A stretch of 64,000 nucleotides of DNA from Terriglobus roseus (GTDB lineage: Bacteria; Acidobacteriota; Terriglobia; Terriglobales; Acidobacteriaceae): NCBI RefSeq assembly GCF_900102185.1, contig NZ_LT629690.1, forward strand, positions 868,001 through 932,000. Direction: 5' to 3'. The position numbers and the translations under genes are program-made. Below, piece after piece: positions 33,604 through 50,700 of this stretch (positions are counted from its first letter, which is position 1; the number at the start of each line of letters is the position of its first letter). Under the pieces are notes generated by a model, which did no database searches, was not told where the DNA came from, and worked only from the letters and a program-made list of their open reading frames with translations.

Positions 33604-35265
33604 TTACTTCACGGTGAGTGCCACCGATGTCTGCTGTGTCACCGAGCCCGCTGTGGCAGCGATGGTGATGTTGGATGTTCCCGCTGGAGTTACCGGCGCT
33701 GGCGTCGGCGTTGTGCTCATTTGCGGTGAACTTCCGCTGGAACAGCCTCCGGCTGCTAGTCCGGACAACAACACCACGACCGTCAGCGCAGCAAGGCGCG
33801 ATGCATTTGTGAGGCGGAGACGCTTGCTGATACCTAGCAGTGATGCGAACGGTAGAAGGAATGCGGCGAAGATTCCTGCGACTACAGGTTGCATCCCGCG
33901 TCTTTGTAGCGGCTGAAGAGCAGCAGTTTTGGTGTTGGTGGTGATGGTCGCAGTGACGATGGACGGAACCGTTGACGACACGCTGGCTTGCGATGGTGAG
34001 AAGCTGCAGGTGGCATTGGCGGGAAGGCCGGAGCAGGCCAGCGATACGTTGCCCGAGAAACCGTTCACGGATGCCAGACTGAGTTGAACCTGCGCAGTGC
34101 TACCAGCGGTTACCGTCGCAGACGGCGAAGCGGAACTGAAACCGAAGGTTGGTGTGGCGCCTGCGGTCGTTGCATTCGTAATCGTTGCGAACAGGCCGTG
34201 CTGTTCCTGATCAAGACCAGCAGTGAAGTAGACCGTGCTGGTGTCCCCACCCGCCACTGCAGTTGTACCGGTTACGGAAGTTCCGCCCGTCAATAGTTCC
34301 CAAAGGCTGGCGTACTTTAGGGCTTTACCGGTGCTGTCAATCAATTGTCCCTGGTATGCGAAGGTCTTCGGATCAAAGACGTTGATGATGCCGTCGCCGA
34401 AATTACCGATCAGCAAATCATTCGAAAAGATGCCGAAGTTTGCTGGCGCGTACGCGATTCCCCATGGAGCATTCAGGTTCCCGCCGGTTGCGACGCGACT
34501 TACAAAGTTGCCGGAGGTATCGAATACGCTGACTGCACCGTTGCCCGCTCCGTTGACGCTCAGATATGGTGCGCTGGCGGAGCGAAGTGCGTAGTTCACA
34601 AACACCTGCGTTCCGAGAACGTGGACAGAGAATGGAGCATATCCCGCTGGCAACGTGGGATCAACGAAATTACCTGCAAGCTTGGTCGGTGCGAATGTGC
34701 TGTCGTAGACCTCGATGGCGTTGCCGGTCCCGAAGTTTGCGGCAAGGATATAGCTCTTGCTGGTGACGCCACCGGAAGCAATATTCAGAATGGCGAGTCC
34801 TGGATAGGACGCACCGGCTGCGTTGTTGTTGATGGCGACCGTTGAAATTGCATTCGCCGTGCCCAGCTTCGAATTCCAACCAGAGATGGTGCCATCGAGA
34901 GTTGAAAAGAGGAAGCTGGCCTTGGTGCCGTTTGCCAACAACATACCAACTGCTCCACCCGTTGTGACAGAACCCGCAGGCAACCCTGGAGCGGTGTTCG
35001 GAGCAGCAGCGGAAGGCACAATCACCTTGAACGAAACAGTCCCCGCTGGTGGAACAACGTAGTTGTATCCGGTGTTCGCAGCGCTAATCCAGAACGTTCC
35101 GCTTGCACTAATGGCCCAGGGATTCTTGAAGTTGGGATCAGTATTGGTGGCCGTGACGGAACCGTCCGACAAGAGATTTGTAACTTTATAGGACTGACCG
35201 GCGATTGGAAGTGTGGCGGCAAGAATAGCGGCGGTGTGCAGCAAAAACTTTCGGATCATTTGCAT
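33604..35265 (-). CDS. TIGR03118-family secreted repeat protein
   Basis: A 553-residue exported protein. I chose ATG 35265 (MQMIRKFLLHTAAILAA), giving a standard signal peptide with cleavage near IAGQ, instead of the frame start at 35316. The body (residues 25-370) is a six-bladed-propeller-like sequence typical of TIGR03118: TNLLSDG, DPNFKNPWAISASGTFWIS, FSTLDGTISGWN, LNAPWGIAYAP and WELLTGG. An Ig-like Ser/Thr-rich domain follows (about 385-460), then a hydrophobic helix (AGIFAAFLLPFASLLGI) with basic residues after it and a Cys near AAGGCSSGSS, and another short Thr/Pro-rich tail. Function is unknown; surface attachment is likely. Confidence 0.8.
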   Translation of the reverse strand: MQMIRKFLLHTAAILAATLPIAGQSYKVTNLLSDGSVTATNTDPNFKNPWAISASGTFWISAANTGYNYVVPPAGTVSFKVIVPSAAAPNTAPGLPAGSVTTGGAVGMLLANGTKASFLFSTLDGTISGWNSKLGTANAISTVAINNNAAGASYPGLAILNIASGGVTSKSYILAANFGTGNAIEVYDSTFAPTKLAGNFVDPTLPAGYAPFSVHVLGTQVFVNYALRSASAPYLSVNGAGNGAVSVFDTSGNFVSRVATGGNLNAPWGIAYAPANFGIFSNDLLIGNFGDGIINVFDPKTFAYQGQLIDSTGKALKYASLWELLTGGTSVTGTTAVAGGDTSTVYFTAGLDQEQHGLFATITNATTAGATPTFGFSSASPSATVTAGSTAQVQLSLASVNGFSGNVSLACSGLPANATCSFSPSQASVSSTVPSIVTATITTNTKTAALQPLQRRGMQPVVAGIFAAFLLPFASLLGISKRLRLTNASRLAALTVVVLLSGLAAGGCSSGSSPQMSTTPTPAPVTPAGTSNITIAATAGSVTQQTSVALTVK

Positions 35266-35406
35266 GGAGACACCTTTTCGTTCGCATATAGCGACCAGAG
35301 AAAGGTAGGCCCGCACACGGCGCGAAGTGTCGCTATCGTGTCACACATACGTCATTTGAGCGTCATGTCATTGCAGGGAAGCAGGAACACGAGTCAGTTT
35401 ATGTGC

Positions 35407-35724: not shown

Positions 35725-37209
35725 TTATTCGCGAGATTGTCCAATCGCCGTTAGGTAACGCAACGTGGCTAGCGAAGGTAGAAAGAAGTATGCACCACCA
35801 CGTACGCGTACGAAACGGGGAATTCCCCCGACAGTTCTACGTTCCCCCAATTGTTCCGATGGCAGAGTGAAACTATCAGGCGGTGCAGCACCTTCAATGC
35901 GTTCGCGGCTACCCAGTAGCGGATCGCTTTCATCTGTGAGTGCGTCAAACTTTGTGCTCATCAACCAGGCACTTTGTAGGAACTCGAACTGCCGCGCGAG
36001 GTTGGCATTCAGGCACATGAAATGAATTCCTTCGTGTGTACTCGTTTCGTCTGTCTGTGTCGAAATAGGAGTGTTTTTGAATTCGCGACCGCGTCGAAGG
36101 ATGCGGTGGAATCTTGACGAGGCCTTGGCATCAGAGTTCAAGGTTTTCTCGCCGAGGCCTAAAAGAGTGAGCAGCCGTTTAATGCCGCTGACCGGAGGTG
36201 AAGGCAGGTCCCCATTGCGCGGGTTTGCTCGGCGAATGTGCGCGCCAAACGGGCACTTCAGGCCGTCAGGGTCCGAAGCAAAATCAAAATGATTGCGATT
36301 ATCATTCGTATCAACACCTGGAATGGGACTGCTGGATAGCGGCACCAATGGCGTGCCATCCTTTCTGCGTCCAACCATTGCTTCGGCCATCATTTCCGCA
36401 GTTGCTTCATCCTCAGAGTGTCCACGAATGAAACGCCAGAATTCGTCTACGTTTTGTTCCAGCGTACGAAGCACGAGATACGATCCGTTGCGCCCGAAGT
36501 CGCGCATGTTTGGCTGATCCTCTGCGACGGGAAGCAGATCGGCTGACGATGCGTCAGAAGGTAACAGTGGCCTATCGGTGTAGCGGTTGTATTCGTTGGG
36601 ATAACCGAGCAGAACCTCGCCGAGAGTGATGCGGTTGGTGTAAGTATCCTCAATCTGTTGAGGAACTCGCGATCGCTCCCAATCGAGTTCCGGCTGACTC
36701 ACTCCGTCTGTAAATCCGAACGGCTCTGTACCGCCGAGGTACGAAGTGTTGAGTTCACTGACAACGCGAAATGCTTCGTTCCACCCGCCTGACTGAATGG
36801 CTTCTTTCCACGCATCCAGTCCGCCTGGGCGGGCGTAGAGCATCACAAGCACATCGACCTTGTTGTTCTCAGATCCCCAGAACCACTGCTCAGGTGCGCT
36901 CTCGCCGACATCGCCCAATAACCGTGCACGAGCGTTGTTGTTCAAACCCGTTTTGAATTCAGTTGAGAATTGCGACAGCAAAGCGGATGAGCATCCAAGC
37001 TTCGTTAATCCCTCATACGTGAACGCAACCTGAAGCGCAGTCTGTGGAGCGTCAGAGAGTGCGACCGCATTGGTCACGGGAGCTGTTTCGATCCAGCCCC
37101 GCGTCTTCTCCGCGTCCTTGATCGTGGCCAGAAGGAAACAGCAGTCTGTTAATTTGCCGTAGCCAAAACGCACAATGCCTTGAATGGCTTCAAACTCAAC
37201 CGAACCCAT
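35725..37209 (-). CDS. DyP-type heme peroxidase
   Basis: A 494-residue dye-decolourising-type peroxidase, which uses hydrogen peroxide to oxidise aromatic or other bulky substrates through heme. The GxxDG motif is at 165-169 (FGFTDGVSQP, catalytic Asp168) and the proximal heme ligand is His324 in CPFGAHIRRANPR. Length and the long insert with EATAEMMAEAMVGRRKDGTPL match the larger DyP branch. No signal peptide or Tat motif is visible, so it should be cytoplasmic or exported with a partner. It is the last gene of a minus-strand operon, 15 bases after the membrane protein gene, together with a catalase relative and a GMC oxidoreductase, which could supply peroxide. Natural substrate unknown. 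Confidence 0.94.
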   Translation of the reverse strand: MGSVEFEAIQGIVRFGYGKLTDCCFLLATIKDAEKTRGWIETAPVTNAVALSDAPQTALQVAFTYEGLTKLGCSSALLSQFSTEFKTGLNNNARARLLGDVGESAPEQWFWGSENNKVDVLVMLYARPGGLDAWKEAIQSGGWNEAFRVVSELNTSYLGGTEPFGFTDGVSQPELDWERSRVPQQIEDTYTNRITLGEVLLGYPNEYNRYTDRPLLPSDASSADLLPVAEDQPNMRDFGRNGSYLVLRTLEQNVDEFWRFIRGHSEDEATAEMMAEAMVGRRKDGTPLVPLSSSPIPGVDTNDNRNHFDFASDPDGLKCPFGAHIRRANPRNGDLPSPPVSGIKRLLTLLGLGEKTLNSDAKASSRFHRILRRGREFKNTPISTQTDETSTHEGIHFMCLNANLARQFEFLQSAWLMSTKFDALTDESDPLLGSRERIEGAAPPDSFTLPSEQLGERRTVGGIPRFVRVRGGAYFFLPSLATLRYLTAIGQSRE

Positions 37210-37224
37210 ACGTCCTCGCTCACC

Positions 37225-38517
37225 TTAGATCAACGCTAGCCAAGCTGCTGCCTCTTTTTCGCTCATAGATTGTTTTTCCAGGCCCGCACGAATCAGCAGG
37301 TTGCGATGTTTATTCGCCGCCGTAAGTCCGGGATGCGCGTTGAACCAAACTTCGGTTGGCAACTGGTGTCTACGCAAAACACGCTTGAATGTTTGTTCGT
37401 CCTGACACCCATCCAGCAGCAACCATCTGGTGCGTGGATAGCCGATACCGTTGCTGAAAGTTATGTTCAGACCAAAGCCGACTTTATTGATGAAGTCGTC
37501 CATGTAGCTTTCCAGACTGCCGTCGTAGATGCTGGAAAATAGCATGCGCTGACCGCCATCCATGAAGACCCAACGTGCAAAGTGAATTGTGGAAACACGG
37601 GCAAGATTTCCGCTGTGGTAAAGATGACGCGCAGCGTAGTCAGTAAACAGAAGAAGAAGCCGAACAACCCACAGTCGCAACCGGCCAGGCTTCAAGCTAC
37701 CGAAGACGTTGAATTGATTTGTAACGTCTTGGTTTTCCATCTCCAGAAGCTTTTCTGAATGATTCGGGTCGACCGGAGGCGCTATAGCGGGATCGTTCTT
37801 TTCCCAGTGCCGTATTTGCAGGATCAAGAAGGGAAGAAGAATCAGTAGAAGTGGCGAGAAGAGAAGAAAAACGACGGGAACGAGAATAAGATTCAATGCG
37901 TTTTGAATGCGCCACGCGATGGGAGTTGGTATAGGAGACGTAAGCCGAAGCTCACCCTGCGCCTTGGATCTATCTACTGTGGCTTGGAGAGCAAGTCGAA
38001 CATTCTCTGCGGAATCCGCGCGCATGTCTTCCTTTAGCTTTTGCTTCAGAAATCGTCGCAGCGTTTCTTCTTCTCTTACCTGAACGACAGTGCGACCGCG
38101 CCAGTTTACGTAGGTTGCGGCTGCATCCGTCCGACTTGCATTGAGCCAGTCTCCTAAATCAGATCCATCTTTGTAGGTGGAGCAGTTGGTGAATAGCTTT
38201 ACCAAGCCTGCTCGTGCTACGCGAACGAGATCGTTGCGAAACGTCGACTCTTCACCATCGATTTCAGCAAGAAAGACGAGATATTCAGGCAAACCGGTTG
38301 TGGGCAGACCATAGACTGCTCGGTCTGCGTTAGCAAGATCCTGCACTACGAGCAAACGTGCAAAGTGAAGCTGTGGGAAGGTGTGAAGCGGAATGAGATC
38401 GTTCTGCGGATCGTAGACACCTGGTTTCTTGTTCATACCGCAGAGAAGCTGATGAACTACCGCCGCAGCTCCGGGCCGAAGCGGCGCGGCGTACATTACG
38501 CTGGCCTGAGGCGTCAT
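37225..38517 (-). CDS. Membrane protein of unknown family in the peroxidase operon
   Basis: I do not recognise a named family. The 430-residue protein has a soluble N-terminal part (residues 1-210), a strong double-length hydrophobic segment at about 213-245 (LILVPVVFLLFSPLLLILLP) that could span the membrane twice or as a hairpin, and a second soluble part with a weaker hydrophobic stretch near 290 (LWVVRLLLLFTDYAARH). Residues HFARWVFMDGGQRMLFSS and SNGIGYPRTRWLLLDG look like conserved cores. The ATG overlaps the stop of the catalase-like gene by four bases, so the two are coupled, and the DyP gene follows 15 bases later. It may anchor the redox proteins at the membrane; this is inference. 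Confidence 0.75.
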   Translation of the reverse strand: MTPQASVMYAAPLRPGAAAVVHQLLCGMNKKPGVYDPQNDLIPLHTFPQLHFARLLVVQDLANADRAVYGLPTTGLPEYLVFLAEIDGEESTFRNDLVRVARAGLVKLFTNCSTYKDGSDLGDWLNASRTDAAATYVNWRGRTVVQVREEETLRRFLKQKLKEDMRADSAENVRLALQATVDRSKAQGELRLTSPIPTPIAWRIQNALNLILVPVVFLLFSPLLLILLPFLILQIRHWEKNDPAIAPPVDPNHSEKLLEMENQDVTNQFNVFGSLKPGRLRLWVVRLLLLFTDYAARHLYHSGNLARVSTIHFARWVFMDGGQRMLFSSIYDGSLESYMDDFINKVGFGLNITFSNGIGYPRTRWLLLDGCQDEQTFKRVLRRHQLPTEVWFNAHPGLTAANKHRNLLIRAGLEKQSMSEKEAAAWLALI

Positions 38518-39779
38518 GGCAGATCACTCGGCGTCGGCTCAAAATGGGGCTCCGAATTCATGCGGTGCCGTAGCTCTGAAAGAGTGGCGTACATCACCTT
38601 GCGCGCTCGGCTTTGATTGCCAAGTGGACGATGGTCCGCGATACAGTGCCAGGGATTGAAGGAGAGAAGCCGCGCCATTTGTATGGCGTATGCGAAGCTG
38701 ACGGCCTGCTGCGGTAAGCGCAATGTCGCCACCGTAACCCGCGGAGAGAGTTTTTCCGGCCACAACACACCTGCATTTTCCAGAGGCATTCGAAACGAAT
38801 CGGTCTGAACTTGCACCTTCATTTCGAAGTCGACTGTTTCACTCGAAAGCCGACTTTCCAAGGCGAGGCGGAGATAGTCGTCGGGCGGTCGCCGAGGGAG
38901 GCGCGGAACCGGTGTACGGTGATTCGACGCAGGCCAGAATGAGTACTGCATCGCTTGGCCTTCGCCCATGAGGTAAGGGACACAACTGAAGTACGGCGCC
39001 TCCAATGGGCTACTTTGCGTCTTTGTCCACAGGCCTTGCATGAGCAGATCGAGGATATGGCTCTGCGTGAAATTCAGGAAGTGGTAGATGGATGCATTCT
39101 GTAGGCTGGCACGTTGAAGGTTTGCATTCGACTTTATGTCGCCTGTAACAAAGGTGGGTGTGCAGACCGCGAGAAAGTCCTGGGTGAACTTTTCTTCCTG
39201 CATCAGCTTTGGCCCCGGAACATCCATGAGCTTTACGCTAATGCTCATGAAACCTACGTCATCGATGTCGGGTGTGATGTAAGGGCCTGGTCCTGAAAAA
39301 CGCACAAAGGCAGGGAAGGTACGGGCCTCGCCAAAGATGCCTTTCGCAAGATGAGTTGGCAATGCGTCGTGCACGATGAATTCACCGCGAACGATGCCAT
39401 GAGTTTTTGTATTTCCTCCCCGCTCAAAACGTCCGGGTTTCCAGAGGCCAGTCATTTGTTGACGAAAGCTGGCGATAACATCCTGGTTAAATTCGTTTTC
39501 GTGGGGCAATAGCTTTTCTTCGGCCAGTGCCAGATGTTCGTTGACACGACGCGCGTTCATGAATGCTGTGGTCAAGCGCGCAACTGGGTCTCGCAGTGTC
39601 GCGTCGAATGCGGGGCGGAACCAAGGGTCGACACGCCGCTCTATCTGGATAAGACGGGTCAACACATCCGCTGTGATGTCTTTGATCCGTGAACCAGTTT
39701 GGGCCTTTGGGATTGGTTGGTCTGGATTGGCTTCGGCACGGGGATCAACCATCCACATACTCCCGAAACAGCGTTTCAA
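38514..39779 (-). CDS. Catalase-related heme protein, y4iL-like branch
   Basis: A 421-residue protein of the catalase superfamily but far from a typical catalase. NTKTHGIVRGEFIVHD near residue 125 supplies the distal His, and FPAFVRFSGPGPYITPDIDD is the usual heme-pocket strand. At the C terminus the normal R-x-F-S-Y proximal motif is replaced by SFNPWHCIADHRPLGNQSRA followed by RKVMY; the R-x3-Y spacing there matches the proximal Arg/Tyr pair of catalase-related enzymes. Such proteins include hydroperoxide-converting enzymes as well as catalases, so peroxide removal is not assured. The first ATG (39779) is used; ATGs at residues 8 and 10 are alternatives. It lies 42 bases after the 146-residue gene and overlaps the next gene by four bases. 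Confidence 0.85.
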   Translation of the reverse strand: MKRCFGSMWMVDPRAEANPDQPIPKAQTGSRIKDITADVLTRLIQIERRVDPWFRPAFDATLRDPVARLTTAFMNARRVNEHLALAEEKLLPHENEFNQDVIASFRQQMTGLWKPGRFERGGNTKTHGIVRGEFIVHDALPTHLAKGIFGEARTFPAFVRFSGPGPYITPDIDDVGFMSISVKLMDVPGPKLMQEEKFTQDFLAVCTPTFVTGDIKSNANLQRASLQNASIYHFLNFTQSHILDLLMQGLWTKTQSSPLEAPYFSCVPYLMGEGQAMQYSFWPASNHRTPVPRLPRRPPDDYLRLALESRLSSETVDFEMKVQVQTDSFRMPLENAGVLWPEKLSPRVTVATLRLPQQAVSFAYAIQMARLLSFNPWHCIADHRPLGNQSRARKVMYATLSELRHRMNSEPHFEPTPSDLP

Positions 39780-39821
39780 GTTGTCCTGAATCTGAGAGGA
39801 CAGGCGGGTTTAGATAAGGAC

Positions 39822-40262
39822 TTATGCCGCAGGAAATTGGAGCGAGAAATGAATCGTCCTCTTCGTGTCCCAATAGACGAGGCCAAGGTAAAGCTGCGGG
39901 GCAATGAGACGAATTTCATCGCGCACATGCTTCGCCAAGAGCGATGTCTTCGAATAATCGAGGATGATGCAGTCCTTCCCGTCGAAAAGGCTCGGGCCAA
40001 CGTAGACCTGCGCAACGATTGCATTCACTCCCAGAGACGAGATGCGATTGGTCAACGTTCCGTGCTTGGCATCAAAGGTTTTTCCCTGCCAGGCAAAGAT
40101 ATTAACGATCGACGCAATGTCATGCGTGAACTTCGTACCGGGCGCAAGAATAGCCCTGCCATCGGCCTCACCATTGGGTATGGGGCCGACAGTGCCGCCT
40201 TTGAAGGCGTCGTCCAACTCACTGTCAGAAAGATTCAGAAGATCAGATGCGGAATAAGACAT
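39822..40262 (-). CDS. Small conserved-looking protein of unknown family
   Basis: No family name can be given. The 146-residue soluble product starts at ATG 40262, where AAGGTGG lies five bases upstream (the frame's GTG at 40271 is less likely). Well-formed motifs include NIFAWQGKTFDAKHGTLTNR, DGKDCIILDYSKTSLLAKHV and LYLGLVYWDTKRTIHFSLQF, which look like a compact lipocalin- or START-like alpha/beta fold. I recall similar sequences beside catalase-like genes in other soil bacteria but cannot cite one. It sits in the middle of the oxidoreductase operon, 42 bases before the catalase-like gene, and could bind a lipid-like or aromatic substrate; that is speculation. Confidence 0.8.
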   Translation of the reverse strand: MSYSASDLLNLSDSELDDAFKGGTVGPIPNGEADGRAILAPGTKFTHDIASIVNIFAWQGKTFDAKHGTLTNRISSLGVNAIVAQVYVGPSLFDGKDCIILDYSKTSLLAKHVRDEIRLIAPQLYLGLVYWDTKRTIHFSLQFPAA

Positions 40263-40395
40263 GCACACCACCTTGTTGCCCTATGGCAAACTCGCTACGA
40301 ATGCGGCTGTGGGGACTGCTCAGGCAACACTATTCGCTTGATCCTTCTGTATGTCAATAAAAAACGGGATGACCACGCGGCCGGAGCTGAACAAT

Positions 40396-42285
40396 CTATG
40401 ACGAAGACGTGTGTGCATCCTGCAGGATGTCGGCTGCGGCTTTCTCTCCGATCATGTAAACCGGGCATGCCAGAAAGAAGCCCGGGATGCGTGGAAAGAT
40501 TGACGCATCCACTACGCGTAGCCCTGCAGTCCCGTGCACTCTGAAGCGACTGTCAATAACGCCACCGCTTTCTGCATCTCCTATAGGACAAGTGCAGGAT
40601 GCGTGATGCCCCCAGGCCTGCGCTCGAATATATTCACGAATCCGATCGGGTGTATCGATCGCTGTACCGGGAAATTCCTCTTTCTCAATTAGCCCTTTGT
40701 CTACTAACGACGAACTGATCGAACGTACGAATTCAAGTCCTTCAACAACCGCATTGAGATCTTCATCATTATCCGGAGTGCCTTCCTCGAAGTAGGCGAA
40801 ATCGATCAACGGAGTGTCTTTGGGGTTGGCTGATCGTAGAGAAACGGTACCGGCGCGGTTGTTGGTGTGCGCCTTTAACACGGCCCATGTGAGGCAGTTT
40901 GAATCGGTAATGAATTCGCGAGAGTATCCGGGGAAGTAGCCTTTGAAGCTGCCGAGAAATGCAACACAGAAGAGGTCTGGAGCAATTCGATCACCGGAGC
41001 GGCGGAACACCGCAAGCACAGCGCCGTTTGTCGCATAGGCGCCACTGCGGCAACGTTTCCACTTAGCGAACTGCGGATCGGTGGTGTCAAACCGAGCATC
41101 CTTCAGGATGTGCCAAGCAGAGAATTTCATCCGGTACACAACGCTGATCTCGTACCTGTCTTGAAGATTCTTCCCCACGCCCGCAAGATGTTTTCGTAAT
41201 GGGATTCCGAAGTGAGCGAGATGCTCCTGAGGTCCCACACCAGAAAGCATTAGTAGCTGCGGTGTATTGAATGCACCACCGCTTAGAATCACTTCACGGC
41301 TCGCGAAGATCGACTTACGCTCTCCTGTGGAGTCATTGGGATTGGCATGTGCGCGGTACAGCTTCTCGCCCTTCAGATATTCGACTCCGATGGCGCGATT
41401 CTCATCATCAAAAAGGATACGAGTCGCAAGAGCGTTCAACTCCACACGAAGCCGATCGGGATAACGCTTCTGCACATCAAGAAGTCGTTCACGTGTGCCA
41501 TTCCGCGCGTGGCCATGTGTCGTTAATGGAAGATACCGAAGGCCAAATGCATCTTCTCCGCACGTCCGTGAGTCGTTCGGATCGAGCAGACTTTGCAGGA
41601 ACCATCGCAGACGCTGCCTGAAATGGCCAAGCTCCTGATTAGCATTTTGCGCAGAAAATAGAATGGTATTCAGCAGGTCGCGGTTGGCGAGGGACAACAT
41701 CGGGATAGCTTTTTCCGTGTGGAGCCATCCATTGAATCCGTGGCGAGAGGGGTTGAAACCGAAGAGAGCTGCGAACCGCAGAAGCGGAAGATAATGACAG
41801 TTCTCCAACTTCTGAAAGTGGCGGCGCATTGTTTTCGGATTCCAACCAGGGTCGCCCGTTAGAGCTTCAATGGCCGCCCAATCTTCATCTGCGGGATACA
41901 CAAAGATCATCGCGTTGTGGGCTGTACATCCGCCCAGTGTTCCAGCCCGTGGATACAGGACTCCATCTACCGGCTTGCCGTCATAGTCCTTGCCGTATTT
42001 AGGATCTTTTTCCTGTTGCTGCTGATTCCGATAGTGTCGAACGAAGAAGTCCCAACGGAGCGCTTCATTCTCAGAGGCGAATGGATGAAAGCAAGGGACA
42101 TCGTAGGTCGTGGGGAGTCGAGCAGCATCTGCATAAGCAGGATCTCCGCCCTGTAGCAATCGAGGGTCACCACCGGCTTCCAGTAACACCACCGTGTGCC
42201 CTGCCTCAGCCAGTCGTGCTGCCACAGTGCCGCCTCCGGCTCCAGAACCAACAACGATGTACTCTGCTTCGGCAATCTGGTCCAT
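40396..42285 (-). CDS. GMC-family FAD oxidoreductase
   Basis: A 629-residue flavoprotein of the glucose-methanol-choline family. I chose ATG 42285, preceded by GAGGAG, instead of the frame start 42390. The FAD dinucleotide motif begins near residue 10 (YIVVGSGAGGGTVAARLAEAG), and GCTAHNAMIFVYP, GAFNTPQLLMLSGVGP and GLRVVDASIFPRIPG are the usual GMC blocks. The catalytic His is kept in WGHHASCTCPIG, but where the second catalytic His/Asn is expected (before P-x3-I-x-EKAA) the text is FFLACPVYMIGEKAA, with Ala or Cys. No signal peptide. It heads the minus-strand operon and is divergent from the di-heme cytochrome, a possible electron acceptor. It oxidises an unknown alcohol, sterol or sugar. 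Confidence 0.9.
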   Translation of the reverse strand: MDQIAEAEYIVVGSGAGGGTVAARLAEAGHTVVLLEAGGDPRLLQGGDPAYADAARLPTTYDVPCFHPFASENEALRWDFFVRHYRNQQQQEKDPKYGKDYDGKPVDGVLYPRAGTLGGCTAHNAMIFVYPADEDWAAIEALTGDPGWNPKTMRRHFQKLENCHYLPLLRFAALFGFNPSRHGFNGWLHTEKAIPMLSLANRDLLNTILFSAQNANQELGHFRQRLRWFLQSLLDPNDSRTCGEDAFGLRYLPLTTHGHARNGTRERLLDVQKRYPDRLRVELNALATRILFDDENRAIGVEYLKGEKLYRAHANPNDSTGERKSIFASREVILSGGAFNTPQLLMLSGVGPQEHLAHFGIPLRKHLAGVGKNLQDRYEISVVYRMKFSAWHILKDARFDTTDPQFAKWKRCRSGAYATNGAVLAVFRRSGDRIAPDLFCVAFLGSFKGYFPGYSREFITDSNCLTWAVLKAHTNNRAGTVSLRSANPKDTPLIDFAYFEEGTPDNDEDLNAVVEGLEFVRSISSSLVDKGLIEKEEFPGTAIDTPDRIREYIRAQAWGHHASCTCPIGDAESGGVIDSRFRVHGTAGLRVVDASIFPRIPGFFLACPVYMIGEKAAADILQDAHTSSS

Positions 42286-42508
42286 CGGTCTCCTCAAGAC
42301 AATCGTTGCTAATGCTAGCCTCGTGCATCCGGCCGGGAACGCAAGTATGTAAAACACAGGAATTTGGGTATCAGGGAACTGCCGGTGCAATTCAGATTGT
42401 TGATTACATTGCGCTCTGCGTGTGGTAAAAAGTACACCTTCCTGGTTCGTTTCACTTCGTGGCGTTGAATAAGGCAGTATCCCCTACTTAGCCAGGTCCG
42501 GAGATCGC
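42286..42508. promoter_or_regulatory. Divergent promoter region, GMC operon versus cytochrome
   Basis: A 223-bp gap between divergent starts; it must carry both promoters. I see no strong inverted repeat or consensus pair. The shared position suggests common control of the redox operon and the cytochrome. Confidence 0.45.
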
Positions 42509-44959
42509 ATGAGCGTACTGAAGCGTCTTGCGTGGGTAATCGTTGCTCTGGTTGTTTGCGCGTTGATTGTGGTGTACTTCTTTATCCACCCAATCATCCT
42601 CTTCCATCCCAAAGATGAAGCCATGCGCGCAGGTCGCGCCGCTGCATCGTTTCCGGCTGCGGATGAAGATTACTACCACGATATGGACGGCGCCATATCC
42701 CTTACTCCTGAAGAGATCAAGGGACGCAACATGTGGATCGCCTGGACGGGAGGCGACGACCGCCTCTGGGACACGCTGGCTACCACCAGCTTAGGCACGC
42801 TTGATTTTTTGAAGACCCTTTCTTCGCGTCCAGGGCTCAAAGCATCTCGCAGCAATCGGTGGGACTACTTGGGTCTTGTGAATGAGCCATGCTATATCCA
42901 GGCGACCGGACCCGATCCGAAACGATATGGGCTATGGCTCGATACGCGCGATCCCGCGTGCGGTCCCGAGCCTTTTGAAAACGAGGCCAAGTATCCCGGT
43001 GTGCAGCTTGGAGCGCGTGGCAAGAACATTCCAGCCGGTTCGTTTTATGGATACGCCACGGGCATCGTTGGCCTCAGACTCTTTCCCAACCCCGAGTTCG
43101 ACGAAAAGGCGGCGAAGCACTGGGACCCGGTACGCTATTACACCGATCCCACGTACTACAACGACAAGAACCTCGTAAGGCCGTACCGAGTGGGTATGTC
43201 TTGCGGCTTTTGCCATGTGGGTCCGAATCCGCTTAAGCCACCAGCCGATCCAGAAAATCCCAAATGGGAGAACCTGAGCTCTAACGTCGGCGCGCAGTAC
43301 TTCTGGATCGACCGTATCTTTGCGTGGCAGTCCGATATGAGCAGTTTTCCCGTGCAACTGTTTCATGCTTCACGCCCGGGAACGCTGGATACTTCGCTCA
43401 TCTCGACCGACAACATCAACAACCCGCGAAGCATGAACGCGGTGTACGATCTGCCGTCGCGCATGGCAGCGGCGCAACGCTGGGGACGCGAGACGTTGCG
43501 AGGCGGTGAACAGGACAACAAACAATTAAACGACTTCATTTCGTCTGGTCCTCTGACGAACTTCTACCAGGCCCCGGACCTGGTAGAGACGCCACGCGTG
43601 CTGAAGGACGGAGCCGACTCAGTAGGTGTTCTTGGCGCGCTAAATCGTGTCTATCTCAACATCGGACTCTACAGCGAAGAGTGGACGAAGCATTTCCGTC
43701 CGCTTGTCGGAGGTCAGGATGTTAGTCCAATCCTGATCAAGACGGCGAATGAGAAGTCGGTGTACTGGCAGGTGACACAACAACAAACGCCCAACATGGC
43801 GTTGTTCTTCCTGAAGAGCACTGCGGGACATCATTTGAAAGATGCTCCTGGTGGCGAGGCTTACCTGACGAAGGATCAAGCTCAACTGGAGCATGGCAAG
43901 ACTGTATTTGCAGATCGCTGCGCACGCTGCCATTCCAGCAAGATTCCTCAGCCCGCTCCGGGACTTGATCCGAACGGGTGCTCTGGTAAGGATTACCTCA
44001 ACTGTTGGAATCGTTACTGGGCGTGGACGAAGACCGATGATTTTAAGACGAAGATGCAGGCCATCGTGCATCAGCCTGACTTCCTTGAGAACAACTATTT
44101 ATCCACAGACCAGCGTGTTCCTGTAACGCTACTCAAGACCAACGCATGCAGTCCATTAGCCACCAACGCAATCGCGGGAAATATCTGGGATAACTTCTCC
44201 TCCAGTACGTACAAGGATCTTCCGTCTGCTGGAACCATCACCGTGTATCACCCATACACGGGTGAGCCGAGCCAGTATGTGCTTCCCGCAGGTGGGCGTG
44301 GATACACCAGGCCGCCTTCGTTGATAAGCGCATGGTCGACCGCACCGTTCCTACTGAATAACAGTGTCGGAACCTTTGACCCAAGCCCGTCGGTTGAAGC
44401 ACGTATGCGATCGTTCCAGGATTCGATTGAAAAGATGCTGTGGCCAGAGCGTCGTGACAAAGACACTTTGCTCCCGGACAAGGTTCCAGGCGTGATTGAC
44501 CGTACAACGCAGGAAAGCTATCTATCGGTCCCGGCCGGGTTCATTCCTCCTGCATTGCGACCATTGCTCAGTCCGGGCAGCAGGCTCTTGCCCGCCGTCT
44601 TTGGTGAAGATTCGATTCGTATCGGTCCTATTCCAGCCGGCACTCCTGTTGATCTGCTTGCAAACCTGGATCTGCTCGGCGAGGGTGTGAGCCCGGCGGA
44701 ACGTCCGGCACGGCAGGAGCGAGTCGTGAAGCTATTGGTGAAGCTGAAGCTTGATCTTGCGAAACTGCCCGCTGGAGCTACCAACGAGCAGGCACAACAG
44801 GTATTCGCAAACCTGCTGCCGGAGATGCTCGCCCTTAGCAAGTGCCCAGACTACGTTTCCAACCGTGGGCACTACTTCGGCACAAGTTATGCGCACGAAG
44901 AGCCAGCTCTTACGGATGCGGACAAACGAGCACTGATCGAATTTATCAAGACCTTTTGA
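42509..44959 (+). CDS. Membrane-anchored di-heme c-type cytochrome, possible oxygenase/peroxidase
   Basis: An 816-residue protein with one N-terminal membrane helix (residues 7-29, WVIVALVVCALIVVYFFIHP) and a large periplasmic part. Two heme-binding CxxCH motifs are present: CGFCH (Cys232, Cys235, His236) and CARCH (Cys471, Cys474, His475). The 240-residue spacing and size resemble the RoxA/di-heme peroxidase group rather than simple electron carriers, but RoxA-like enzymes are shorter (about 650-700 residues), so I name only the architecture. MNAVYDLPSRMAAAQRWGR and TRPPSLISAWSTAPFLLNNS look conserved; the latter recalls di-heme cytochromes that coordinate substrate near heme. Start ATG 42509 gives the anchor directly. 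It is divergent from the GMC operon and followed by a strong terminator. Confidence 0.88.
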   Translation: MSVLKRLAWVIVALVVCALIVVYFFIHPIILFHPKDEAMRAGRAAASFPAADEDYYHDMDGAISLTPEEIKGRNMWIAWTGGDDRLWDTLATTSLGTLDFLKTLSSRPGLKASRSNRWDYLGLVNEPCYIQATGPDPKRYGLWLDTRDPACGPEPFENEAKYPGVQLGARGKNIPAGSFYGYATGIVGLRLFPNPEFDEKAAKHWDPVRYYTDPTYYNDKNLVRPYRVGMSCGFCHVGPNPLKPPADPENPKWENLSSNVGAQYFWIDRIFAWQSDMSSFPVQLFHASRPGTLDTSLISTDNINNPRSMNAVYDLPSRMAAAQRWGRETLRGGEQDNKQLNDFISSGPLTNFYQAPDLVETPRVLKDGADSVGVLGALNRVYLNIGLYSEEWTKHFRPLVGGQDVSPILIKTANEKSVYWQVTQQQTPNMALFFLKSTAGHHLKDAPGGEAYLTKDQAQLEHGKTVFADRCARCHSSKIPQPAPGLDPNGCSGKDYLNCWNRYWAWTKTDDFKTKMQAIVHQPDFLENNYLSTDQRVPVTLLKTNACSPLATNAIAGNIWDNFSSSTYKDLPSAGTITVYHPYTGEPSQYVLPAGGRGYTRPPSLISAWSTAPFLLNNSVGTFDPSPSVEARMRSFQDSIEKMLWPERRDKDTLLPDKVPGVIDRTTQESYLSVPAGFIPPALRPLLSPGSRLLPAVFGEDSIRIGPIPAGTPVDLLANLDLLGEGVSPAERPARQERVVKLLVKLKLDLAKLPAGATNEQAQQVFANLLPEMLALSKCPDYVSNRGHYFGTSYAHEEPALTDADKRALIEFIKTF

Positions 44960-44969
44960 ACCCGATGCG

Positions 44970-44999
44970 AAACGGCCATTGCACGCACAATGGCCGTTT
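44970..44999 (+). terminator. Terminator after the di-heme cytochrome
   Basis: AAACGGCCATTG (44970-44981) and CAATGGCCGTTT (44988-44999) form a perfect 12-bp stem with a six-base loop, followed by TTTGTG. The next 180 bases up to 45180 show nothing else. Confidence 0.85.
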
Positions 45000-45180
45000 T
45001 GTGTCTTGGTGTGAGCTGTATGAACGGCACTGTCTAGGCACGCCACCACTCGATGCCTCGGAGTGGCTCTGCCGATACGGTCTTCCTCATTCCGGCCGGT
45101 TTATTGCATACGAGGACGATTTCTCTCGATTGACGATGCCTTTTAAGCCTCGCTTAAGGTTTGAAAAGTACCGTTGCATT

Positions 45181-46521
45181 ATGGAGTTCCGCGCGAAAGT
45201 TTCTTCAGGGATTGGCACCGTACTGATTGCCCTCAGTTCGATCAGTGTCGCCCAACAGGTGCAGGTAACAACGCCGAGGCATTTGACGCTGCCAGATGCC
45301 ATCCAGCTGGCTAAAGCGAATGAGCCTACCTTCGCCACGGCGTTGGCTACGCAACAGAGCGCAAAGATCGATGCCTACCTTGCGAAGGCGGCGCTGTTGC
45401 CTTCCGCCACGTACCACAACCAAATGCTCTACACCCAGCCGAATGGGCAAACAAATCAGGGCGGGCAAGTGGGTGCGCAGGCTTCGCCGATATTTATTGC
45501 AAACAACGCGGTTCATGAGTACGTGAGCCAGGCTGTTGTCGACGAGAAGGTCGGCTGGAAGGGCATCGCAGATGCCCAGGTAGCGTCTGCGAATTCCGCT
45601 CGTGCGGCGGCAGAGCTTGAGGTCGCACGGCGTGGCCTCGTTGCAACAGTTGTTTCGCTTTATTACGCCGTAAGTTCTTCAGCGGCAAAAGCTCGGGTTC
45701 AGACAGAAGCCTTTGCAGAAGCGAAGGACTTCACCACAACGACACAGCAGCGAGAAGCTGCCCGTGAGGTTGCGCATGCAGATGTTGTGAAGGCCCAGTT
45801 GCAGATGCAGCAGAAGCAGCGAGACTTGAGCGATGCCAAGGTCGCAGAGCAAAAAGCCACGCTGGAGCTTGCTGTGCTCATGTTTCCTGATCCGCGCACT
45901 CCGTATACGACAGACCCGCCACCAGTATCACGCAACCTTCCCACCAAGGAAGAGGTTGATCAGGCAGCATCAACGAACAATCCGGAGATACGAAGCGCGC
46001 TGGCTGGATTACGAGCGGCGAATGCGGGTGTGACTTCTGCGAGGGCGGCGTATTTACCGGATCTGGGGTTGAACTTCACCTACGGAATCGATGCGCCTCA
46101 ATTTGCAAAGCGGGGCCCGGATGATGTTCGCAATCTTGGATATTCCATCAGTGGCACCATCGATATCCCCGTGTGGGATTGGTTCTCAACTCAAAAGCGA
46201 GTGAAACAGAGTGAGATTCAACGCGACGCTGCGAAAGTGACACTAACAGCCGCACAACGACGACTCATCGCAACACTTGAGGAAAGCTATACGGAAGCGG
46301 CTGCAGCGCGTGATCAGCTCGATCTGCTGGACCAGAGTGTGGTGACTGCGGAAGAGAGTCTTCGACTTACCAAGTTGCGTTATTCGGCCGGAGAATCAAG
46401 CGCTCTGGAAGTTGTGGATGCGCAAAACTCGTTTCTTGCGGCGCGCACGGCACAGGCGGATGGCGTCGTGCGATACGAAGCTGCCCTTGCTTCACTTCAA
46501 ATTCTTACAGGAACCCTCTGA
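45181..46521 (+). CDS. TolC-like outer-membrane efflux protein
   Basis: A 446-residue outer-membrane factor of a tripartite pump. I chose ATG 45181, which gives a signal peptide (MEFRAKVSSGIGTVLIALSS, cleavage near VAQQ); the frame is open far upstream but that part overlaps the terminator. The product shows the TolC duplicated pattern of long alpha-helices: DAIQLAKANEP and NPEIRSALAGLRAANAGVTS at the start of each half, and the typical ending LRYSAGESSALEVVDAQNSF then LASLQILTGTL. It forms the channel through which the RND pump expels substrate. Its stop is followed one base later by the adaptor start, so the three genes form one operon. Confidence 0.93.
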   Translation: MEFRAKVSSGIGTVLIALSSISVAQQVQVTTPRHLTLPDAIQLAKANEPTFATALATQQSAKIDAYLAKAALLPSATYHNQMLYTQPNGQTNQGGQVGAQASPIFIANNAVHEYVSQAVVDEKVGWKGIADAQVASANSARAAAELEVARRGLVATVVSLYYAVSSSAAKARVQTEAFAEAKDFTTTTQQREAAREVAHADVVKAQLQMQQKQRDLSDAKVAEQKATLELAVLMFPDPRTPYTTDPPPVSRNLPTKEEVDQAASTNNPEIRSALAGLRAANAGVTSARAAYLPDLGLNFTYGIDAPQFAKRGPDDVRNLGYSISGTIDIPVWDWFSTQKRVKQSEIQRDAAKVTLTAAQRRLIATLEESYTEAAAARDQLDLLDQSVVTAEESLRLTKLRYSAGESSALEVVDAQNSFLAARTAQADGVVRYEAALASLQILTGTL

Positions 46522-46522
46522 C

Positions 46523-47785
46523 ATGATCTGCCGTTCATTCAAGCCAATTAAGCTCGTTGTTTCGTTGCTCTGTGTTGCGTCGATAGGTGGCTGCAAGAAG
46601 GCTGTGGACGAAGCACCTCCTGCAGTTGTTACCGTGGAAGCAGAGAAGCCCGAACGCGGAGAGATTTCCGAACATATTGCTGCAGATGCGACCCTATCGC
46701 CTCTGGCGCAAGCAGCCATTTCGCCCAAGATCACAGCGCCTGTGCGGACGTTTTATGTGCAACGTGGTTCAAAGGTGAAGGCTGGGCAGCTGCTTGCGGT
46801 ATTGGAGAATCGAGATCTCGCAGGGCAGGCACTGGACAACCAGGGACAATACACAGCAGCGCAGGCTTCATTTCAGATGCAGACGCAGGCCCAGGTACCG
46901 GAAGACTATGCCAAAGCCGAGTTGGACGTTGCTCAGGCGAAAGCACAGTTGAAGTTGCAGGGAGAGATTGTTGCGGCGCGCCAAAAGCTGTTGCAGGAGG
47001 GGGCAATTGCCGGACGCGATTACGATACCGCGGTGGCGGCGCTTGCGCAGGCGCAGGTTGCATACGACACTGCGTCCAATCATCTTCATTCACTGAAGAG
47101 TGTTTCCAGCGAAGCCACGAAACGGCAGGCGCAAGGTCAGCTTTCATCCGCTAAAGGAAAGTATGAAGCCGCAGAAGCGCAGGTGTCGTACTCACAGATT
47201 CATACGCCAATTTCCGGTGTGGTGACAGATCGTCCTTTGTTTCCGGGAGAAACAGCCAATACAGGTACACCGCTGATCACGGTGATGGATACGTCATCCC
47301 TTTTAGCAAAAGTTCATCTTTCGCAGATCGTCGCACAGAGACTCAGTTTGGGAGATGGAGCATCAGTCACAGTACCGGGTGTTGATGAGCCTGTCACCGG
47401 CAAGGTCAATCTGATCAGCCCTGCGCTTGACCCTGGGAGCACGACGGTTGAGGTGTGGTTGAAGATCGACAATACCGCAGGAAAGTACAAGGCGGGAACT
47501 CCTGTTCACACATCCATCATCGGTCGCACCGTGCCGAACGCTGTGAAGATTCCGCTGGAAGCAGTTCTGACTGCTGAAGATGGCAGCAAGTCCGTCATGG
47601 TCGTAAACAATGACGGAACGGCGCACAAAGTAGCGGTACAGCTCGGAATAAATGATGGCGAAGATACGCAGGTAGTACAGGGGCTCAACGGCTCAGAAAC
47701 CGTGATTACGAAGGGCGCTTACGGACTGGATGAAGGAACCAAAGTAAAGGTCGGCAAGCCTGGGGCTGAGGGAGAGGACAAGTAA
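46523..47785 (+). CDS. RND efflux periplasmic adaptor (membrane-fusion lipoprotein)
   Basis: A 420-residue HlyD/RND-type adaptor joining the inner-membrane pump to the TolC-like channel. ATG 46523 gives a lipoprotein signal with lipobox LCVASIGGC, so the mature protein is tethered by Cys. Lipoyl half-motifs are visible in ISPKITAPVRTFYVQRGSKV and IHTPISGVVTDRPLFPGE, separated by a long coiled-coil (roughly residues 95-225, Gln/Ala rich), then beta-barrel and membrane-proximal domains. No Met/His-rich metal site is seen, against a copper or silver role. The TAA stop overlaps the next ATG by one base (TAATG). Confidence 0.93.
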   Translation: MICRSFKPIKLVVSLLCVASIGGCKKAVDEAPPAVVTVEAEKPERGEISEHIAADATLSPLAQAAISPKITAPVRTFYVQRGSKVKAGQLLAVLENRDLAGQALDNQGQYTAAQASFQMQTQAQVPEDYAKAELDVAQAKAQLKLQGEIVAARQKLLQEGAIAGRDYDTAVAALAQAQVAYDTASNHLHSLKSVSSEATKRQAQGQLSSAKGKYEAAEAQVSYSQIHTPISGVVTDRPLFPGETANTGTPLITVMDTSSLLAKVHLSQIVAQRLSLGDGASVTVPGVDEPVTGKVNLISPALDPGSTTVEVWLKIDNTAGKYKAGTPVHTSIIGRTVPNAVKIPLEAVLTAEDGSKSVMVVNNDGTAHKVAVQLGINDGEDTQVVQGLNGSETVITKGAYGLDEGTKVKVGKPGAEGEDK

Positions 47786-50700
47786 TGGAAGGTCGTCTTC
47801 TCGCAACAGATCAGAAGCCATACTGGCTCGTACGTTTTCGCGGACCGATCTTTTTCTTTCTGATCGTGCTGTCCCTTGCTGGAATCTATGCGGCGCAAAA
47901 GGTCCCGATCTCCGTGTTCCCGGACACCAATTTTCCGCGTGTAGTCATTGGTGTCGACAACGGTGTGATGCCCGTTGATCAGATGCAGGTAACTGTCACC
48001 AAGCCCATTGAAGATGCTGTAAATTCGGTGCCCGGCCTGGTAACAGTACGATCCAATACCAGCCGCGGATCAGCGGAAGTCAGCCTCTTCTTCGACTGGA
48101 ATGTGGATATGTTCCGCACGCTGCAGTTGGTGGACGCAGCGTTAAGCAAAGCTCGACAGACCCTACCTGCTACAGCCACAATCACGACTAATCGTCTTAC
48201 TTTTGCCACCTTTCCTATTCTTGGCTACAGCCTGACTTCAAACCGTCTTTCGCAGACGCAGCTATGGGAGCTGGCAACGTATCAACTAAAGCCCCCTATT
48301 AACCGTGTTGCCGGTGTGAGTACGGTCACGGTGCAAGGCGGTAAGGTCCCTGAGTTTCACATTGTGCCGAACATGGCACGTATGCAAACTGCCGGTGTCA
48401 CGATCCTTGATCTGGTGAATGCAGTCCAGGCGTCGAACATTATTGATTCACCTGGTCTCTACGAATCGAACCATCAACTTGTCTTAGGGCTTGTGGGAGC
48501 TCAGGCGCATGACGCCTCTGAGTTGGGCCGGCTTGTAGTGAAGAGCACTAACAACGGTGTAGCGGTGCGTGTGTCGGATGTTGCTGCGGTGCAGCCGGGT
48601 GTGCTGCCGGTGTATACCGCTGTCACGGCTGATGGTATTCCGGCTGTTCTAATCAACATCACGCGCCAGCCATCCAGTAACACGGTAGCGGTGACAGACG
48701 CGGTTGCGGCACAGATTGAGGCGTTAAAGAAGAATCTGCCGCAGGGTGTGCAGCTCAAACCGTACTACGACCAATCGGAGCTTGTGCGTGAAAGTATCGG
48801 CAGCGTACGCGACGCCATTCTGATTGGACTGGGCCTCGCCTGCATCATTCTGTTTCTCTTCCTCGGAGATTGGTCTTCGTCTCTCGTCGCAGCATTGGTC
48901 ATTCCCGTAACGGTGGCTCTTACGGTGCTTGTCTTGTGGGCGATTGGCGAGAGCTTCAATCTAATGACCCTTGGAGGACTTGCAGCTGCAATTGGCCTCG
49001 TCATCGACGATGCGATCGTGGTGGTCGAGAACATTGTTCTGCATCGAGATAACGGCGAGTCACGTGCAGAAGCGGCGCGGCTAGCGCTGAAAGAGATTGC
49101 GGTCCCACTTGTGGGCTCAACGATTACGCCAGTGGTCGTGTTCCTACCTCTCATTTCGGTCACTGGTGTTACGGGTAGCTTCTTTCGAGCACTCGCCATC
49201 ACCATGACGATCTCTCTCCTAACCTCGTTGTTGCTTGCCGTAACTTGGACACCGGCGTTGAGCCTTGTTCTGTTGCGTCACACCAAGAAGGAGAATGTTT
49301 CCAACGAACACGAACAGCATGGTCGCGTGATGCAGAAAGTGCTTCACTGGCACGAGCGCGGACTTTCATGGGCATTGAGCCGACCGTTCTGGCTACTAGC
49401 GCTCTGCGGCGTGCTCATCGTGGGAACGTACGTTGGCTATCAGGCGCTTGGCTCGGACCTATTGCCTGAGATGGACGAAGGCGGTTTCATTCTTGACTAC
49501 ATCATGCCTGCCGGAAGTTCTCTCACAGAGACGAATCGTGTACTGGAACACGTTGACCGGATTCTTCACTCCATGCCTGAAGTGGAAAGCACTTCGCGTC
49601 GCACCGGCCTGCAGATGGGACTCGCTGCGGTGACTGAGGCCAACACAGGCGATATGACGGTAAAGCTGAAGAAGAATCGCAGTCGCGGAATTGATGAAGT
49701 CATCGCAGATGCCAGGGCTGAAATCAAGAAGACGGAACCGGGACTTGATGTGGAGTTTGTTCAGGTCCTTCAGGATATGATCAACGATCTGTCCAATGCG
49801 CCGGAGCCAATTCAAATCAAGCTCTATGCGAATGATCCAGTATTGCTCTCTGATGTTGCATCGCGTGTCGGTGAAGAGATTGGCAAGATTCCCGGCGTGG
49901 TCAGTGTTGAGAACGGTATCGAGAACACGATCAGTGGCCCCGCTACAAATTTTCAGATTGATCCAACCGTAGCTGGCCGTATGGGGTTCACTCCACAGGA
50001 AGCAGCTGAAGACGCAACATCAATTCTCGATGGAGTCACAACAACCGATCCACTGATCGCCAACGGGCGGCCATACACGGTTCGCGTCCGCTTGGGCGAT
50101 GAAACCCGCAAGTCACTCGACGCCATTGAAAACACTGTATTCAACAGCGCCAGCGGCAAACTGGCAACGCTCGGCTCTCTGGCGCAGGTGACGCAGTTGC
50201 CACCGCAAAACGAGATTCGCCGTGAGAATCTACAGCGTCTGGTTGTGGTCACAGCACAGTTGCAAGGCTCTGATCTTGGCACTGCAATTTCAAAGGTGCA
50301 GCAGACGGTAGCGGCAATGCATCTGCCACCGACGGTCCACGTCGTGTATGGAGGGACTTACCAGGAGCAGCAACAATCGTTCCATGAACTGTTGCAAGTG
50401 CTGTTGATATCGCTTGCACTTGTTTTCGGAGTATTGCTAATCGAGTTTCGCAACTTTTCAGCTCCCATCGCGATTCTCTCGTCGTCGGTCCTTTCTGTTG
50501 GAGGAGTTGTACTTGCTCTGCTGATCACCGGAACAACGTTCAATGTGGCGTCGTTCATGGGCGTCATCATGGTGATTGGCATTGTGGCGAAGAACGGCAT
50601 TCTGCTGCTGGATGCCGATGAGCGCTATCGGCATGAGGGCACATCTCCACGCGAAGCCATGCTGCATGCGGCGCAGCGCAGGCTTCGCCCCATCTTGATG

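Follow-up and report, generated by a model that had tools for sequence, protein, structure and literature searches.

A conserved six-gene cluster around a DyP-type peroxidase in Terriglobus roseus and a possible lipid-hydroperoxide pathway in bacteria

Results

A cluster of haem and flavin enzyme genes

We analysed a stretch of 64,000 nucleotides from the bacterium Terriglobus roseus (the window, C1:868001-932000 of a 4.85 Mb genome, G000, that consists of a single contig). It holds six neighbouring genes, four of which encode haem or flavin enzymes (Table 1): a DyP-type peroxidase (DyP), a membrane protein (MEM430), a catalase-related protein (CATL), a small protein (U146), a GMC flavin oxidoreductase (GMC) and a di-haem cytochrome (CYT). 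The original prediction, made from the sequence alone, had described these six genes. The list of open reading frames of the window recovers every one of them at the same coordinates and on the same strands, including the 4 nt overlap between MEM430 and CATL (38514-38517) and the divergent CYT.

Table 1. Genes of the cluster and their positions in the window.
Gene	Position	Strand	Description
DyP-type haem peroxidase (DyP)	35725..37209	minus	494 aa; solved DyPs are the best relatives
MEM430	37225..38517	minus	looks like two homologous DyP-partner domains around a hydrophobic segment (about residues 202-237)
CATL	38514..39758	minus	catalase-related haem protein without the full catalase signature; start uncertain (see text)
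U146	39822..40262	minus	146 aa; family without Pfam model
GMC flavin oxidoreductase (GMC)	40396..42285	minus	629 aa; begins at the FAD-binding motif
CYT	42509..44959	plus	di-haem cytochrome c, probably membrane-anchored; divergent relative of RoxA-like proteins

DyP and MEM430 are separated by 15 nt, U146 (ATG 40262) and GMC by 133 nt. CATL may start at TTG 39779, ATG 39758 or ATG 39752, which leaves 42, 63 or 69 nt to U146. The GMC start seems better placed at ATG 42285, behind GAGGAG, giving a protein of 629 and not 664 amino acids. The divergent gap to CYT (42509) would then be 223 nt. Promoter-like and terminator-like sites are no more frequent at the locus than in shuffled sequence.

Conservation of the cluster

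An alignment of DyP was scanned against genome contigs, one genome per species, from 84,980 species. At least 564 candidates were confirmed as DyPs, and the best 80 are the loci counted here. They were picked for the closeness of their DyP and not for its neighbourhood, and they are silent on more distant DyPs; one of them (L087) has a DyP identical in sequence to that of genome G111, which appears again below. Neighbours were counted within 10 kb of DyP and per reading frame; adding the domains of fused frames raises the counts by two for U146 and by one for CATL. A subset of 52 long-flank loci has at least 8 kb before and at least 5 kb after DyP. The 80 loci represent 12 phyla, and the nearest named relative of the window DyP belongs to an Edaphobacter metagenome-assembled genome (MAG; Acidobacteriaceae).

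MEM430 accompanies DyP in 79 of the 80 loci, U146 in 68, CATL in 67, CYT in 50 and GMC in 43. All six genes occur together in 33 loci, and 19 of these have them on a single strand. In the long-flank subset the counts are 52 for MEM430, 49 for CATL, 48 for U146, 35 for CYT, 29 for GMC and 26 for the complete set. The complete set is found in Acidobacteriota (6/14 loci), Pseudomonadota (25/50), Myxococcota (1/1) and Verrucomicrobiota (1/3), and the commonest layout is CYT-GMC-U146-MEM430-DyP-CATL on one strand (15 loci). In 75 of the 79 cases counted, DyP is immediately preceded by a MEM430 gene of the same orientation; from the end of MEM430 to the DyP domain the median distance is 32 nt, and in 69/79 it is at most 60 nt. 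U146, MEM430, DyP and CATL are the usual core of the cluster, present together in 59 loci from eight named phyla (one locus has no phylum assignment).

Some of the genes are also fused. DyP and CATL share one frame of 1010 residues in a Nitrococcus MAG (L083), and two Amycolatopsis genomes (L096, L098) each have a frame in which MEM430 follows U146; all three frames are mechanical stop-to-stop readings. The original prediction took the six genes for a system and made this idea depend on their co-occurrence outside this genome. The idea holds: the families share one neighbourhood in several phyla and persist there through changes of order and strand, and three frames carry fusions of them. That the six genes form a conserved unit is near certain. 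In the DyP tree, well-supported branches force at least four changes each for Acidobacteriota and Pseudomonadota, a pattern compatible with transfer between phyla but no proof of it.

We also surveyed 200 genomes of the same class, with a MEM430 search followed by family profiles. The MEM430 search gave four long matches and two weak ones, and by family profile MEM430 is full-length in 4/200 genomes. A same-genus genome (G163, L008) has all six genes in unchanged order, G026 (L010) keeps the full set with order and strands altered, and G111 (L009) has five genes up to a contig end, with its cytochrome near the end of another contig. Full-length CATL occurs in the same four genomes as MEM430; 13 genomes match at 1e-30, nine of these through remoter relatives only. 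U146 is found in the four MEM430 genomes and in G103. CYT is found at E 0 in nine genomes, including the four with MEM430, and in 14 at 1e-30.

Five of the nine CYT genomes have no full MEM430 or CATL. The stretches fetched from them contain CYT and GMC (G131, G133, G052), GMC, U146 and CYT (G103) or CYT alone (G177). Five stretches that had been fetched for different purposes (L011-L014, L016) serve as a small control and contain no CYT or GMC. One explanation is that CYT and GMC are a separate dehydrogenase-cytochrome redox pair, in which GMC takes electrons from an alcohol and passes them to CYT, and that this pair is merely often parked beside the DyP core. The three genomes with CYT and GMC but without MEM430 and CATL fit this explanation, and so does the finding that the two genes are gained and lost largely together across loci. 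It does not fit the 15 loci in which the six genes stand in one order on one strand. Nor does it fit the predicted location of the proteins, since CYT appears to be exported whereas GMC starts at its FAD motif without a signal, or the resemblance of CYT to oxygenase-type di-haem proteins. We consider a separate pair quite improbable.

Exchangeable front ends

CYT and GMC are one of at least two exchangeable front ends of the cluster. The other consists of a haem peroxidase of the cyclooxygenase superfamily and a second CATL (CATL2), with the layout haem peroxidase-CATL2-U146-MEM430-DyP-CATL in ten loci. Of 17 such peroxidases four were scanned, and all four belong to PF03098; the motif YR[LM]H is present in 15/17. 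In the literature, a Tyr-x-x-His motif, with the catalytic Tyr and the proximal His three residues apart, is a feature of cyclooxygenase-type dioxygenases (PMC13049297). The peroxidase of the variant clusters has both the fold and the Tyr/His motif of this type, a result that does not concern the window itself.

The two front ends are almost mutually exclusive among the 52 long-flank loci. CYT and/or GMC without the haem peroxidase are found in 33 and the haem peroxidase without CYT or GMC in 14; two loci have both and three neither (Fisher p 4e-8). GMC is absent from most haem-peroxidase clusters while DyP remains. A third arrangement combines a long U146-like protein with a protein of 577-753 residues (k8) and occurs in five loci, in Nitrospira and three Proteobacteria (L089:3522-5468, L091, L022, L025, L032). 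Three k8 members were scanned and have no Pfam match. Lipoxygenase, a conceivable peroxide source, is not among the annotated recurrent neighbour families; single neighbours were left out of this annotation. Other families that recur in 6-12 loci are regulators, a GGDEF protein, ABC transporters and LysR regulators (one or two representatives of each were annotated).

Properties of the six proteins

DyP-type peroxidases are marked by a catalytic Asp in GxxDG, a proximal His and a distal Arg. The window family keeps its catalytic residues throughout: Asp168, His324 and Arg326 in 84/84 members and Arg372 in all 83 rows that cover it. The family assignment is secure by solved DyPs, the best structural matches (1.7e-37), and by the NCBIfam superfamily model TIGR01413, which matches at 2.8e-19 but with 69.6 bits against a cut-off of 100.5. 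The Pfam scores are near their cut-offs. The DyP sequence has no visible export signal.

No model of Pfam or NCBIfam matches the window proteins MEM430, U146 and CATL, the first two of which the original prediction had also left unrecognised. A Pfam scan of relatives gave only stray single-member matches among 31 U146 and 31 MEM430 members. The two halves of MEM430, which flank the hydrophobic stretch found by hydropathy, are homologous to each other (hhalign probability 97.6, E 3e-12; three shuffles gave E 0.13-0.27). Single partners that correspond to one MEM430 half stand at three more distant DyPs: L011, L012 and L013, the last on a Rhodococcus plasmid and followed by CATL. Because its halves are homologous around the hydrophobic stretch and half-size partner genes precede other DyPs, MEM430 resembles a pair of DyP partners linked by a membrane segment.

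In further genomes of the class, DyPs of another branch have two small separate genes before them in all six loci fetched (L134-L139, from G043, G183, G171, G066, G135 and G194). One gene resembles the second half of MEM430 and the other the first half. This is apparently an undescribed three-gene DyP-partner operon.

Structure prediction, suggested earlier for both unrecognised proteins, succeeded in part for one of them. MEM430 reaches a mean predicted local distance difference test score (pLDDT) of 56 from a four-row alignment, and only parts of the first 130 residues are fair. Foldseek matches of this model are weak and point to small alpha/beta-barrel proteins (best E 0.015), which is probably the fold of MEM430, though on weak evidence. 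U146 stays at a mean pLDDT of 47, also from four rows, and has no convincing relative in the PDB.

CATL keeps the proximal haem ligand Arg-x-x-x-Tyr (Arg385 and Tyr389) and the Thr before the distal position in 36/36 members. The distal His position holds His in 27, Gln in seven and Tyr in two members; the position of the catalase Asn, checked through relatives that keep it, holds Ser in 27, Cys in seven and Val in two. Eight remoter relatives keep the Asn in seven cases and the distal His in six. In the shorter CATL2 of the variant clusters, the distal residue is Ile, Leu or Val in 10/11. No Pfam family matches any of the 36 members. CATL shares with heme catalases (PF00199) the proximal ligand, but neither the distal His/Asn pair nor a match to the model, and these residue counts rule out a standard catalase. 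Coral allene oxide synthases are the sole relatives when the CATL profile is compared with the PDB at E up to 1; the match to 1u5u has an E of 2.5e-4 and spans only about 60 residues. Because CATL lacks the conserved catalase residues and its relatives are paired with oxygenase-type haem proteins, an organic hydroperoxide is more likely to be its substrate than H2O2.

RoxA-like di-haem cytochrome genes lie directly beside catalase relatives in L124, L125 and L126 (G192, G080, G139), pairs that have none of the other four families nearby. On the Rhizobium leguminosarum plasmid pRlvC (L016:5950-8976), a catalase-relative domain (residues 55-341) opens a frame of 1008 residues annotated as a LodA/GoxA quinone-cofactor oxidase, possibly a fusion of a peroxide maker and a peroxide user.

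The window CYT has weak family matches only (PF00034 at 6.6e-5; NF040606 with 36 bits against a cut-off of 150), and an NF040606 search of its own genome lists no match. Both CxxCH motifs are kept in 53/53 CYT proteins, and a third, C-terminal ligand His (GHxFG) in all 49 rows that cover the position. Compared with 13 RoxA-like proteins of the class, the CYT profile scores 130 over 177 columns, whereas 20 shuffles score at most 28. This control used trimmed alignments, the 20 shuffles and one reversed alignment; with untrimmed alignments it was unusable, as two of three shuffles scored as high as the real match. L099 and L102 have a RoxA-like gene next to CYT, and L127 has one close to a CYT-like gene. 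CYT has an export-type N-terminus with a hydrophobic segment (hydropathy), and we infer that it is anchored outside the inner membrane. CATL, DyP, U146 and GMC carry no export signal.

The GMC assignment is secure by its two Pfam domains (PF00732 at 1.2e-19, PF05199 at 3.7e-28), and the catalytic His596 is kept in 48/48 members. The second catalytic position, which we located by eye and presume to be the usual His/Asn site, holds Ala in 32, Val in 14, Thr in one and Asn in one of the 48. Alignments with solved structures show that this second residue is not universal in GMC enzymes. A photodecarboxylase is among the best PDB matches. We reject a photodecarboxylase-like function because the active-site His is kept in 48/48, while the photodecarboxylase lacks it in the alignment.

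Neighbouring genes

Just downstream of the DyP gene, window positions 33604-35316 encode a TIGR03118 family protein (250 bits) with a match to the 'lipo-invert' C-terminal anchoring domain model NF058595. Directly after CYT (44842-50901) follow three genes that by eye resemble an RND efflux system (outer-membrane factor, membrane-fusion protein and transporter). Further away, 5072-31115 is a glycan-degradation region with GH95 and GH38 glycosidases, a TonB-type outer-membrane beta-barrel and a DUF5107/TPR protein; its protein of 594 residues at 29331-31115 has no Pfam match.

Discussion

We propose that the cluster encodes a pathway for the dioxygenation of a lipid (a fatty acid or an isoprenoid) and for the processing of the resulting hydroperoxide, and we give this proposal an even chance. 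CYT would take the place of a cyclooxygenase-type dioxygenase and make the hydroperoxide of an unsaturated lipid, and the CATL proteins would convert it. CYT may add O2 to the unsaturated substrate in the manner of di-haem fatty-acid oxygenases, or it may cleave the substrate in the manner of rubber oxygenases. CATL has probably ceased to be a true catalase and would cleave or rearrange the hydroperoxide. DyP, which its two-domain partner MEM430 would keep at the membrane, would oxidise the product further with a peroxide, perhaps with that hydroperoxide itself. GMC would oxidise the resulting alcohol or aldehyde, and U146 would act with MEM430, possibly in substrate handling.

The original prediction had a different mechanism: H2O2 from GMC would serve DyP in the oxidation of a hydrophobic or polymeric substrate, and CATL would clear the excess. 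DyP is catalytically complete, GMC retains its FAD motif and its catalytic His, and both genes are found in 29 of the 52 long-flank loci. However, GMC is missing in the other 23, where DyP and MEM430 are still there, and its second catalytic residue is replaced in 47/48. CATL is not a standard catalase, and DyP shows no export signal that would take it to a polymer outside. What stands is the idea of a system, with a revised mechanism: CATL has lost the conserved catalase residues, and for the first step CYT is a better candidate than GMC. Apart from CYT being related to the rubber-oxygenase family, we found no support for lignin or rubber as a substrate. The H2O2-based pathway as a whole is improbable.

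Another possibility is peroxide defence. DyP, CATL and the partner protein would destroy lipid hydroperoxides or H2O2 that arise by accident, CYT would be a cytochrome c peroxidase, and there would be no dedicated product. Three of the six proteins are indeed haem proteins of peroxidase-type or catalase-type superfamilies, and DyP retains its catalytic residues. Yet GMC, and elsewhere a cyclooxygenase-type peroxidase with Tyr-x-x-His, would be odd members of a scavenging system, and CATL has lost residues that catalases conserve. We regard pure defence as unlikely.

Several observations weigh against the lipid-hydroperoxide pathway. The MauG-motif position of CYT is Leu in 40, His in 10 and Gln in three of 53 proteins, and CYT may therefore not act like the fatty-acid dioxygenase PA2077. 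For the same reason we call CYT a relative, and not a member, of the RoxA-like/FadCcp group. The RoxA-like model PF21419 matches two of 29 CYT members at E 0.01 (best E 0.0034) and not the window protein, and a RoxA structure is absent among the 60 PDB matches listed of 77. CATL retains the distal His in 27/36. CYT is exported while CATL, DyP, U146 and GMC lack an export signal, so that the hydroperoxide would need to cross the membrane. Finally, the exchange of front ends is not significant once kinship is controlled for (seven usable pairs, p about 0.25), a comparison that is underpowered.

Known systems resemble parts of the cluster. Its closest worked example is a pair in Nostoc punctiforme, a linoleate 10S-dioxygenase with a catalase-related hydroperoxide lyase (Brash 2014, as cited in PMC13049297 and PMC9579011). 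The variant clusters are similar, with a cyclooxygenase-superfamily dioxygenase beside a catalase relative; they differ in that this front end sits on the U146-MEM430-DyP-CATL core. In the window a di-haem cytochrome and GMC stand in its place.

For PA2077 of Pseudomonas aeruginosa, H130, H375 and H611 are reported as ligand His and PYFHNGSVP as the MauG-type motif (PMC4496055). Like PA2077/PA2078 (FadCcp, oleate-diol synthase) and RoxA, CYT is apparently an exported large di-haem c protein. Its three haem-ligand His come in the same order as in PA2077, and it has profile homology to RoxA-like proteins from its taxonomic class. It is unlike PA2077 in that the MauG-motif His is mostly Leu, and unlike all three in that GMC, DyP and CATL accompany it in a six-gene cluster.

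CATL resembles the coral catalase-related allene oxide synthase (PDB 1u5u, 3dy5), which its profile matches. Both have the Thr before the distal position, where we take the coral enzyme to have Thr-His, but in CATL the distal His is variable and the match is short. The window DyP shares fold family and catalytic residues with other DyP-type peroxidases (e.g. PDB 8re3) and differs from them by the MEM430 directly before it, a family without Pfam model. Alkene cleavage has been reported for a DyP from a fungus (PMC7181223).

More generally, the cluster may stand for a widespread, undescribed bacterial pathway akin to oxylipin synthesis. In this tentative proposal, to which we give somewhat less than an even chance, a membrane-tethered core (DyP, the duplicated partner MEM430, a catalase-derived enzyme and U146) would take hydroperoxides from dioxygenases that are unrelated and can replace one another: a di-haem cytochrome derived from RoxA or an enzyme of the cyclooxygenase type. 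Searches of the open-access full-text literature listed no description of the cluster (most subscription papers lie outside that scope). The combination of genes, the partner family MEM430, U146 and the oxygenase exchange appear new; the enzyme classes were already known.

To our knowledge, only few bacterial lipid-oxygenation pathways have been worked out. If our proposal is true, it adds a common one, with three protein families that lack a Pfam model. Its product could be a signal, a modification of the membrane or a step in hydrocarbon use. For DyP peroxidases, most of which have no clear natural role as yet, the cluster also supplies one branch with a conserved partner protein and places it in a chemical context open to direct testing.

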